A stretch of 64,000 bases of DNA from Levyella massiliensis. GTDB lineage: Bacteria > Bacillota > Clostridia > Tissierellales > Peptoniphilaceae. This document shows positions 11,693-56,274 of the stretch, piece after piece. How positions within the stretch are numbered: the first letter of the stretch is position 1; each line of letters begins with the position of its first letter. The notes under the pieces are model-generated. The model saw nothing but the letters and a program-made list of their open reading frames with translations. It did no database searches and had not been told where the DNA came from. Position numbers and translations under genes: made by a program. The stretch lies in contig NZ_HG529490.1 of the NCBI RefSeq assembly GCF_000308275.2, forward strand, positions 272,609-336,608, given 5' to 3'.

Positions 11693-12259
11693 ATGAAACG
11701 ATTTGAGATTCGTCCCAATAAAATGGTGTTTCTATCCGTCCTTACTGCTATTGCCTTAGTGATTTCGTTAGTGGAACATTCCATGCCTTTGCCCGTCGGT
11801 GTGCCCGGCGCCAAATTAGGTTTGTCCAATCTGGTGATCTTGGTCACCATTGTGGTCTATGGCGGGCGGGAAGGCATCTTGGTCTCCATCCTGAAATCCG
11901 TGCTATTGCTACTGTGCACTGGCTCCGTGACCGGCTTTTGGTATTCCGTTTGCGGCGCTCTTTTCTCTTCTGTCGTCATGAGCGTAGCCGTTCGTCATTT
12001 TATGCCGCTTTTCAGCTTGATCGGTGTGAGCGAGCTGGGCGCCTTGGCCCATAATATCGGGCAGCTTTGTATAGCTTGTATCGTATTGCAGAATCGTGCG
12101 ATCTTTGTCTATTTACCGATTCTTACTTTAGTGGGGTTATTTACAGGATTTTTTGTGGGCCTATCCGCGAACGGATTGGTTCCGCCACTTCGAAAGGCTT
12201 CCGGTGCATTTCGCGAAGGGAGACTTTATGAAAACACAAATCCAAGAGAAAAACAGTAA
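11693..12259 (+). CDS. Gx transporter family membrane protein
   Basis: This 188-residue protein has five or six predicted membrane helices. GVPGAKLGLSNLVILV and LGALAHNIGQL are hallmarks of the family annotated as Gx transporter or heptaprenyl diphosphate synthase component I (COG4769), which resembles ECF-transporter substrate-binding subunits. Its substrate is unknown. The ATG lies three bases after the stop of the NusG-II gene, so the two are probably co-translated. The C-terminal tail overlaps the radC start. Confidence 0.82.
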   Translation: MKRFEIRPNKMVFLSVLTAIALVISLVEHSMPLPVGVPGAKLGLSNLVILVTIVVYGGREGILVSILKSVLLLLCTGSVTGFWYSVCGALFSSVVMSVAVRHFMPLFSLIGVSELGALAHNIGQLCIACIVLQNRAIFVYLPILTLVGLFTGFFVGLSANGLVPPLRKASGAFREGRLYENTNPREKQ

Positions 12260-21601: not shown

Positions 21602-22052
21602 CCCCATGTTTAAATGCGTTTATTGAAATAACATGGGGGCCCAATTTCGGCATTCCCCATGTTAAATGTAAATCGTAAAAATAACATGGGGTAAAAAATC
21701 TCTAAATTCTTCGCATTACCCCATGTTAAAAGCAAATCCTAAAAATAACATGGGGTGCATTTGCAGTCGAAACGCAAAATTACCCCATGTTAAAACGTGA
21801 TTCCAAAAATAACATGGGGTATCGTAGCCTGTCCTACCCCATGTTAAATGCGAATCGCAAAAATAACATGGGGTAAAGCCGCCTTTGGGACGAAAAATTA
21901 CCCCATGTTAATTGCGAATTGTAAAAATAACATGGGGTAAAGCCGCTTTCGGAGCGAAAAATTACCCCATGTTAAAATGCGATTTTTGAAATAACATGGG
22001 GCACCGGCAGTTTGGCCCCATGTTAAATTGTTTTATGTGAAATAACATGGGG
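21602..22052. repeat. Repeat array 1: eight 37-bp inverted-repeat units
   Basis: Eight units start at 21602, 21655, 21719, 21783, 21837, 21901, 21965 and 22016. Each is exactly 37 bp: CCCCATGTTA, a 17-base AT-rich core, then TAACATGGGG (the first unit has CCCCATGTTT). Arms are almost invariant, cores vary, and an A-tract usually abuts the right arm. Start-to-start steps are 53, 64, 64, 54, 64, 64 and 51, a short-long-long pattern in which the difference is about one helical turn. Units bordering 27-base spacers often extend the arms to TTACCCC/GGGGTAA. No ORF covers it. It is not CRISPR, since the units are palindromic and the spacers short and partly alike. Function unknown. Confidence 0.95.
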
Positions 22053-22208: not shown

Positions 22209-22245
22209 TACGCTGTTTGAACATTCATCACAGACCTGTCTTGAA

Positions 22246-22296
22246 AACTGGAACGTAGTGAGAACTGGAAGGTAGTAAAAACTGGAATGTCGTAAA
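22246..22296 (+). repeat. Three 17-bp tandem repeats in the bioY leader
   Basis: Copies beginning AACTGGAA start at 22246, 22263 and 22280, exactly 17 bases apart, with two or three differences between them. They lie between the bio promoter and bioY. They could bind a regulator or be a chance slippage product. Confidence 0.7.
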
Positions 22297-22317
22297 AAAC
22301 GTGAAAAAGGAAGAAAA

Positions 22318-31149: not shown

Positions 31150-31223
31150 GGGAGGCGCCTTTTCGTCCTTCTGCTTTCAGCACTTGTTATCATGAACAGG
31201 GCATTGGATTCGTCCGGTGCTCG

Positions 31224-31253
31224 GTTGCGTGAATAATGCGCCTATGCTACAAT
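31224..31253 (+). promoter_or_regulatory. Promoter of ssrA
   Basis: TTGCGT (31224-31229) and TACAAT (31248-31253, with upstream TGC) are 18 bases apart, ending 10 bases before the tmRNA. Confidence 0.75.
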
Positions 31254-31263
31254 GGCGCGACAC

Positions 31264-31607
31264 GGGGATGCTCGGTTTCGACAGGGAAACGGAAGAAGGA
31301 GAAGCGAGTCGTCAGGCAGATGACGTAAATCAGGCAAAAACAATAACTGCTAACGACAACGAATTAGCTTACGCTGCCTAATCATGGCGGCCGGTCCTCC
31401 GGCTGGACCCGTAACAGACGGACTGACCTCAACTATGTCGGGAAACTTCCTGCGCTAAGCTTTGCCCGCAGGTTGGATCTATGAAGCTACCGAATGACTT
31501 CGTTTGTTTATTTCCCCGGTCATTCGGGAATCAAATGAAATAAACTGCACTCGGAGAAACTCGTTTGGATGTTTTTTTGGACGAGGGTTCGATTCCCTCC
31601 ATCTCCA
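31264..31607 (+). ncRNA. ssrA: Transfer-messenger RNA (tmRNA)
   Basis: The 5' end GGGGATG pairs with CATCTCC at the 3' end to form the tRNA-like acceptor; GGTTCGATTCC is the T arm. The resume codon is GCA 31334, and the tag reads AKTITANDNELAYAA with stop TAA 31379-31381. CCA is not encoded. The tag ends in YAA, as expected for degradation signals recognised by ClpXP. A phage fragment begins just beyond the 3' end. Confidence 0.97.
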
Positions 31608-31617
31608 AAGTAGAGAA

Positions 31618-54529: not shown

Positions 54530-55162
54530 ATGGCATTCTTTAAGATTACTCCGACCAAAGCCAATTTAATGAAAGTAAAATCCATGCTCGCCCTGATGGA
54601 GTCCAGCTACACTCTTTTGGATAAGAAGCGCGTCGTGCTCTTGCGTGCGGCAAACGCAGAATTGAAGAAAAAGAAAGAGCTGGAGGCGGATCTTGCTTCC
54701 GTCAGCGATGCGTTTCGTGAGAAATTAAAGCATGCTACGGTTGCCATGGGGCACTATCACTTGGAGTCCATCGCCGCGGGAATGCCTGTCGACGAATCCG
54801 TAACCCTCCAGAATCGCTCGTACATGGGCGTGGAAGTGGCACGTCTGCAACACGGCGAAACCACAAAGGATGAAACAGACTTTGATACCGTGCATATTAC
54901 GTTAGACTTTGCCACCCAAGCAATGCAGGATTTTAAGAACATCCTCTTGGAGCTCGCGTCGGTGACCGATGCCGCCGATCGCTTGCAGCGAGAGATGCTA
55001 AAGACGCAGAAGCGTGCCAATGCCCTCGAAAAAGTGCAGATCCCGAAGTACAAGAAATTCCGGGATTTCATTGCTCAATCCCTTGAAGAGAAAGAGCGCG
55101 AGGAATTTTTCCGCTTAAAATTGCTGAAAAAGAAGAAGACGCGCAAAAAGGGCAAGGCGTAG
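54530..55162 (+). CDS. atpD: V-type ATPase subunit D (central rotor)
   Basis: This 210-residue protein has two long helices joined by a central part. It begins with KITPTKANLMKVKSMLALMESSYTLLDKKRVVLL, which is diagnostic of subunit D. Its C-terminal helix carries RANALEKVQIPKYKKFRDFI and ends in a basic KKKKTRKKGK tail. It turns inside the A3B3 ring. It is the last gene of the operon and a strong terminator follows. Confidence 0.96.
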   Translation: MAFFKITPTKANLMKVKSMLALMESSYTLLDKKRVVLLRAANAELKKKKELEADLASVSDAFREKLKHATVAMGHYHLESIAAGMPVDESVTLQNRSYMGVEVARLQHGETTKDETDFDTVHITLDFATQAMQDFKNILLELASVTDAADRLQREMLKTQKRANALEKVQIPKYKKFRDFIAQSLEEKEREEFFRLKLLKKKKTRKKGKA

Positions 55163-55181: not shown

Positions 55182-55222
55182 GAAGCGGAGGGCGGCCTTT
55201 GGGCCGCCCTCCGCTTCTTTCT
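55182..55222 (+). terminator. Terminator of the V-type ATPase operon
   Basis: A very strong stem of about 16 bp (GAAGCGGAGGGCGGCC with its complement, loop TTT) is followed by TTTCTTT. It isolates the repeat array that follows from ATPase transcription. Confidence 0.95.
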
Positions 55223-55251
55223 TTGCCGTATGGTGAAACGCCTGATGGCGA

Positions 55252-55732
55252 CTAGGTATATTTTGATATACGCTTTTTACCTAGCCGGAAATCGGAGTCG
55301 ATCGGCGTGTTGCGACTAGGTATATTTTGATATACGGTTTTTACCTAGCCGAAAATCGGAGCCGATCGTCGTGTCGCGACTAAGTATATTTCCATATACG
55401 TTTTTTACCTAGTCGAAAATCGGAGCCGTTCGGCATGCTGCGACTAGGTATATTTCCATATACGTTTTTTACCTAGCCGGAAATTGGAGCCGATCGGCGT
55501 GTTGCGACTAGGTATATTTCCATATACGTTTTTTACCTAGTCGAAAATCGGAGCCGTTCGGCATGCCGCGACTAGGTATTTTTCCATATACAGTTTTTAC
55601 CTAGCCGGAAATCGCCCACGAACGCTCCACAGCAGCTAGGTATTTTTCCATATACAGTTTTTACCTAGTCGAATAGCGCCCATAGGCACCAAAAGCTAAC
55701 TAGGGTTTTCTGCTATTTTAACTTTTACCTAG
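55252..55732. repeat. Repeat array 2: eight 33-bp units with exact 64-bp period
   Basis: Units start at 55252, 55316, 55380, 55444, 55508, 55572, 55636 and 55700, each exactly 64 bp after the last. Each unit is 33 bp: CTAGGTA, a core with an inner inverted repeat (GTATAT-TTCC-ATATAC or a variant), a T5-6 tract, then TACCTAG. In unit 3 the left arm reads CTAAGTA, and unit 8 is more diverged. The 31-base spacers between units 1-6 are alike and contain GCCGATCGGC or GCCGTTCGGC; the last two spacers differ, yet the 64-bp step is kept. No ORF lies here. Function unknown. Confidence 0.95.
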
Positions 55733-55962: not shown

Positions 55963-56274
55963 ATGGACACAATTGACAATCAAGCGGCCATCGAAGCCGT
56001 TTTTCATACCTATTTTAACGATGGATATTTCGAGTCCCGCAGCGGCGAAATCTGCCTCACGCTGTATCCGAAGCGATGGGCTTGGCTGCCCTCGGACAAA
56101 CAAAAAGCATGGGATGCGGTTGTTGCAAAATTTTCTGATGACCCGCGTTGGGATCATACGGATGTGATGAAACAGCAATTCTATTGCCATGCGCGCTTTG
56201 TGTATCAGCTCTTTGAGCGAGAATGGAATCTTGAACCGTGGCGGACATCTATGGATTTCTTCACTTGCAATTGA
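55963..56274 (+). CDS. Small DUF2599-like protein
   Basis: This 103-residue protein has no signal peptide or membrane helix in the annotated frame. The C-terminal part FYCHARF...EWNLEPWRTSMDFFTCN resembles the DUF2599 pattern (CH...WNLEPWRP...CN) as I remember it. The role of that family is unknown and its other members are mostly secreted. AAGGAGAAAG lies before ATG 55963. It has a promoter of its own and lies directly downstream of repeat array 2. Confidence 0.65.
   Translation: MDTIDNQAAIEAVFHTYFNDGYFESRSGEICLTLYPKRWAWLPSDKQKAWDAVVAKFSDDPRWDHTDVMKQQFYCHARFVYQLFEREWNLEPWRTSMDFFTCN

Follow-up and report, generated by a model that had tools for sequence, protein, structure and literature searches.

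The Levyella massiliensis genome carries arrays of palindromes with a regular geometry and constant link lengths, which fall into several families under similar length rules and which, in this genome, lie between genes with an excess of convergent neighbours. Judged from the sequences, the spacing, and not the letters of the spacers, looks to be what is kept in these arrays. One of them lies in the window, a 64,000-nucleotide stretch of this genome, and consists of eight forward-strand units of the form CTAGGTA-N19-TACCTAG (family A) at 55252..55284, 55316..55348, 55380..55412 (unit 3, with left arm CTAAGTA), 55444..55476, 55508..55540, 55572..55604, 55636..55668, and 55700..55732 (a degenerate terminal unit, CTAGGGT..TACCTAG). 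As the original prediction had it, all eight unit starts, from 55252 to 55700, are 64 bp apart. The seven spacers of 31 bp each fall within 55285..55699, the first at 55285-55315 and the last at 55669-55699. The upstream neighbour is the last gene of a V-type ATPase operon (54530..55162, forward strand), which we take to encode subunit D, and the strong terminator predicted ahead of the array is present between the two, at 55182..55225 on the forward strand, with a 16-bp stem, a 4-base loop, and a T-rich tail. A 103-aa ORF follows downstream (55963..56274, forward strand). Elsewhere in the window, the tmRNA gene at 31182-31608 is also matched by the permuted tmRNA model, with overlapping coordinates.

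The exact arm-to-arm pattern has 44 matches in the genome and its reversed control has none, so the pattern does not arise by chance. We found eight family A arrays (a1-a8) with 58 units, allowing at most two arm mismatches per unit, a setting at which more degenerate arrays could have escaped. Those on contig C1 start at 11982, 190365, 327860 (the window array, a3), 800697, and 840776, with 10, 9, 8, 6, and 6 units, and those on contig C2 at 400050, 450810, and 452244, with 9, 4, and 6 units. The search that the original prediction called for thus succeeded within the genome, but the four other genomes of the genus showed no family A when the exact pattern TACCTAG-N20..40-CTAGGTA was sought; a scan of named genomes for the link plus one unit, from which records near our own genome may be left out, likewise gave 0 matches. 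Half-site spacing alternates between 26 and 38 bp except in the unit at C1 190493, which deviates by 1 bp, and the loop is exactly 19 bp in 57 of the 58 units. Because each of the 16 array ends is formed by a complete 33-bp unit (when one or two mismatches in the arms are allowed), we take CTAGGTA-N19-TACCTAG as the unit and the 31 bp as the link. Some details of the original prediction call for correction. The palindrome GCCGATCGGC, claimed for spacers 1-5, is exact in one of the five (spacer 4) and was not seen in the other seven arrays; the inner GTATAT/ATATAC pair is present as described, yet is mainly confined to the window array and a2; and the last two spacers, called unlike the first five, are not wholly alien, as by eye they resemble spacers of a8 and a4. 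A BrkB-like gene (PF03631) is flanked on its two sides by family A arrays, at L010 8811-9035 and 10245-10597, whose orientations are opposite.

All 50 family A spacers are exactly 31 bp long, and 48 of them are distinct. Their mean identity is 0.67 within arrays and 0.48 between arrays, compared with 0.27 for shuffled sequences. Parsimony on a neighbour-joining tree, which gives an estimate of the count, places ∼273 substitutions and 0 indels in these spacers, and the 19-bp loops have 68 substitutions and one indel. In alignable noncoding DNA between congeners, the ratio of gap events to mismatches was 0.112, 0.080, 0.114, and 0.107 in four comparisons, from which 22 to 31 indels would be expected in the spacers. 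The claim that distance is kept though sequence changes is therefore borne out, and we regard 0 against 22-31 indels as strong, not absolute, evidence because gene conversion could copy exact lengths and lower the expectation.

A second family (B, CCCCATG) has seven arrays in our sample of the genome, which comprises 21 pieces and 424,006 bases and was partly chosen around known arrays. The core links are 27-27-17-27-27 bp in six of the seven arrays and 26-27-17-27-27 bp in the seventh, such that the outer core links measure 27 bp in 27/28 cases; outside the core, six links range from 13 to 17 bp, and the seventh array also has one of 27 bp. The 27-bp link is constant with palindromes of either 37 or 38 bp, and the central link is 17 bp in all seven arrays with an identity near chance (0.31). 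A change of step inside the family, from 64 to 54 bp, corresponds to one helical turn. Across arrays, link identity is 0.51 at the same position, 0.50 at the other position of the same half, and 0.41 in the other half, and 0/2000 position permutations reached the observed half-level likeness, which suggests that the block was probably copied as a unit. The family B array of the window, eight CCCCATG..CATGGGG palindromes at 21602..22052 with links of 16-27-27-17-27-27-14 bp, sits between tandem genes. A 17-bp tandem repeat (TGAAAACTGGAACGTAG, 3.4 copies) at 22242-22298 lies immediately 5' of an ORF that looks to us like a BioY-type transporter.

Further palindrome families were found in the same sample and in the congeners. 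Steps of 63-65 bp occur in family C (CCGTGCC, two arrays), in family D (TACCGTGGGT, one array), and in family B together with its one-turn-shorter steps, while family E (TTACGGG, two arrays in the sample and also present in G004) has a step of 53 bp. The congener families have steps of 42-43 and 48 bp (P, CAGGG), 55 bp (Q), 53-54 bp (R), 40-42 bp by TRF (S), 62-63 bp (T), 53-54 bp (U), and 54 bp (V, in G003). Families C and D (L010 1686-2313, L008 16516-16945, and L175 10145-10924) have arm letters in common, and their arms have changed together (CCGTGCC/GGCACGG versus CCGTGGG/CCCACGG), a sign of palindromy kept. The two family E arrays at L178 11264-11503 and 12036-12160 lie on either side of an ORF of 114 aa that has no Pfam match, and each is seen by eye to adjoin an inverted copy of a GTAGAG/CTCTAC-containing stretch. 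Arrays of a GCGCCGC palindrome with a 40-42-bp period (L144 747-1540, L131 11554-11708, L149 14775-14922, L210, and L213), in which the whole-turn rule is fitted loosely, often adjoin other palindrome arrays, and a short 53-bp array of this genome (L170 9-130, AAAAGTACTGTA), whose consensus palindrome is only 6 bp, possibly represents a further family. Beyond the genus, 60 kb from each of four other genera of the taxonomic family held two tandem arrays, neither palindromic, and among 634,503 bases from 79 loci of other genera there were 10 tandem-array rows, of which one is palindromic and lies inside an open frame.

The original prediction placed all units on the same face of the helix. The steps of unrelated families do cluster near whole turns: 12 family steps compared with a 10.5-bp turn give R = 0.84 and P = 0.0001, where both the null (uniform, 40-66 bp) and the family list were hand-chosen and families C/D and P/U look related. 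With the 48-bp layout of family P added, R is 0.70 (P = 0.002); with the likely related families collapsed and 48 bp used for P/U, R is 0.63 (P = 0.024); and the six families from outside this genome, taken alone in an early set, give P = 0.06 by R or 0.03 by mean cosine. The fit to a 10.67-bp turn is post hoc. In one R array, a step of 64 among 53s stems from an 11-bp duplication, a one-turn change. The 48-bp P layout, at ∼4.5 turns, is a clear exception to centre phasing, and Q (55) and S (40-41) fit whole turns loosely. For newly sampled stretches, where the phase prediction was stated beforehand, the steps seen were 53 for E, 55 for Q, 53-54 for R, 54 for V (G003), 62-63 and 125 for T, the 62 being just below the predicted 63-65, and 42-43, 86, 128, and 129 for P. 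Several steps were off the prediction: 30/45/45 in an L350 array inside an open frame; a single 48 in L210 (G002, in a stretch obtained before the prediction); in R arrays, a 44 together with a 64 and two steps of 58.5, which reflect mispaired tokens or the 11-bp duplication; in L333, a 150; in Q arrays, 52 and 56.5 when these are read in the opposite direction; and S tokens of 25 and 30.5. One 43-bp array, in L324, has a consensus without a 7-bp palindrome and falls outside the step measurement.

Since palindrome length differs by 1-2 bp within families B, P, and U, the edge-to-edge link is a stricter constant than the step, and in this respect the idea of same-face spacing had to be amended. 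In family U, the link is 19 bp with palindromes of 34 or 35 bp wherever no unit is skipped. In family P, it is 25 bp with palindromes of 17 or 19 bp in 5/8 and 10/12 links of two arrays, the remaining links spanning units skipped by the palindrome search. The 48-bp P layout alternates palindromes of 17 and 29 bp, so that the 25-bp link is kept, as it also is in the 48-bp layout of L149, where the 43/53 steps are due to a mispaired token. A link that is constant while palindromes vary would point to protein contact across the facing half-sites of neighbouring palindromes.

Of 20 arrays examined in this genome, 19 had both flanks called, and these lie between convergent (9), tandem (8), or divergent (2) genes. 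Convergent siting is in excess (9/19 versus 15/114 other gaps of at least 100 bp, Fisher P = 0.0014), in a comparison made in pieces partly chosen around arrays. Noncoding siting is well supported only for this genome's 64-bp arrays, since in the congeners many 54-bp arrays fall within open frames of 100 codons or more (54 being a multiple of 3). In the congeners, the family A array is missing from the three sites at which both flanks could be aligned. The distance between anchors is ∼265 bp in two congeners versus ∼800 bp here for a5, 218 bp in one congener versus ∼1009 bp for a6, and ∼215 bp in G001 versus ∼2,180 bp for a1, with no array at a5 or a6 in these congeners. At three congener loci corresponding to the window array, an ABC transporter gene lies downstream of ntpD and no array is present, and at b5 the gap in G001 is occupied by another gene and lacks a B array. 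The two sites read by eye gave no sign of a target duplication. Of 10 array-neighbour proteins scanned, four had no Pfam match at E 0.01, and the others have no family in common.

Several processes could give rise to such arrays. One is that they are transcribed and act in RNA as terminators, stabilisers, or sponges; on both strands the window array is predicted to fold more stably than shuffled sequences (z −6.5 and −9.9, 0/100 shuffles each). Such folding is uninformative, as palindrome arrays in general would fold so. Moreover, 17 of the 26 gene 3' ends that face an array already have a terminator-like hairpin before it and nine do not (raw counts), and an Rfam search of the window array returned no family at its gathering score. 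In family A the base preceding the left arm is always a purine and the base following the right arm always a pyrimidine, but these flanking bases do not covary (27/58 Watson-Crick pairs versus 25.4 expected, and 25/50 versus 22.4 expected around the spacer), a pattern more in line with CGRCTAGGTA as a protein half-site than with an extended hairpin stem. We consider a role in RNA very unlikely. Curved DNA was also considered and rejected: excess 10.5-bp periodicity of AAA/TTT tracts is limited to 2/18 arrays, both of family C. Passive satellites, grown by slippage and unequal crossing-over with the period held by recent amplification and homogenisation, could account for the greater likeness of spacers within arrays, for the more frequent mismatches in terminal family A units (5/16 versus 3/42 inner units, P = 0.03), and for the 128-bp higher-order period seen in a3 and a6. 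Slippage should leave partial units, however, whereas every family A array terminates in a complete one; the spacers of this family have diverged with no indel, the central link of family B has a constant length at near-chance identity, and links are constant though palindromes change length. These observations make passive growth an unlikely explanation.

The main rival is that the arrays are selfish mobile repeats of the REPIN/BIME type, copied as blocks into intergenic gaps by a trans-acting enzyme that needs fixed lengths. The block-like copying of family B, the intergenic siting, and the much shorter, array-free gaps of congeners at a5, a6, and a1 agree with this. On the other hand, Y1_Tnp (PF01797) has 0 matches in this genome (G000), although 5/14 control genomes match; the single match among five genomes of the genus, in G003, has a stop inside, and G003 carries V arrays, not A. 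Isolated family A units are likewise lacking among the 50 exact places in the genome, and inspection of two sites by eye gave no target duplication. Taken together, we hold this origin to be somewhat unlikely.

The reading that we tentatively favour, as a real possibility, is that the arrays are predicted cooperative operator blocks, compact and intergenic, in which links of fixed length keep the dimers on the palindromes to the same side of the helix. Each palindrome would bind one protein dimer, for family A through CGRCTAGGTA as the putative half-site, and neighbouring dimers would touch across the fixed link on the same DNA face, making binding cooperative. The bound protein may differ from family to family, or may read shape more than letters. 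BIME-2, an array of REPs, binds DNA gyrase, and BIMEs have been proposed to act on chromosome topology or as borders of transcription units; by analogy, the compact block between genes may do either. The arrays have also spread, family B probably as blocks. Counted against the operator reading are the 48-bp P arrays, which break centre phasing, along with the loose fit of Q (55) and S, the lack of helical phasing of A-tracts in 16/18 arrays, the two arrays between divergent genes, and the copying of exact lengths that gene conversion could provide. A bolder proposal, which we rate as rather unlikely, is that chromosomes of the genus are studded with fast-evolving arrays in which helical geometry and not sequence is inherited, a bacterial satellite chromatin that would pack or insulate intergenic DNA in blocks of, for example, two groups of three sites displaced from each other by one helical turn. 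Distance conserved with free sequence is a rare and clean sign of selection on DNA geometry itself. Several unrelated palindromes under similar length rules in one small genome would make the protein partner and the phase rule directly testable, and the arrays could enlarge the few known chromosome-organising repeats outside Proteobacteria.

A literature search found no description of such arrays, which is no proof that none is in print; the paper on the Murdochiella vaginalis genome (PMC6011929) has no mention of repeats, CRISPR, or palindromes in its main text, and PMC13137690 does not mention tandem repeats. Family A resembles CRISPR in having a 33-bp palindromic repeat and 31-bp spacers, but it is set apart by its spacers, which are related within and between arrays and not unique. 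A phage or plasmid element is not indicated, with no match at E 0.01 in distant mode among 50,697 phage and 72,556 plasmid records. TACCTAG-N31-CTAGGTA occurs in 97 stretches of viral contigs, at a single place in each among the matches listed, in keeping with a 14-letter pattern, and the one viral match of family B is an isolated hairpin; a viral origin was accordingly rejected. The closest likeness is to REPs and their arrays. PMC2817692 describes BIMEs as arrays of palindromes at regular spacing that lie outside genes and for which a part in organising the chromosome has been suggested, puts REPs at >100 copies per genome, and notes that those of Xanthomonas campestris are mostly clustered; PMC3733652 places REPs mostly between convergent and same-direction genes and gives most of them a GTAG or CGTC tag at one end. 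The arrays of this genome are similarly extragenic and regularly spaced, mostly between convergent or same-direction genes, whereas family A has 58 units in eight arrays and its units, by eye, begin and end in CTAG. In Pseudomonas fluorescens SBW25, PMC3116915 reports ordered tandem REP arrays at fixed distances of 112 and 72 bp, which our arrays recall, but also singlets and doublets and a proposed link to RAYT genes. Without single family A units, and with no cognate Y1_Tnp in the genome, membership in the REPIN/RAYT system was rejected. The arrays differ from BIMEs further in that link lengths are kept without sequence and that several unrelated palindrome families have similar length rules. 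They are intergenic palindrome arrays that are BIME-like in place and layout, yet depart from REPs in most of the comparisons made.
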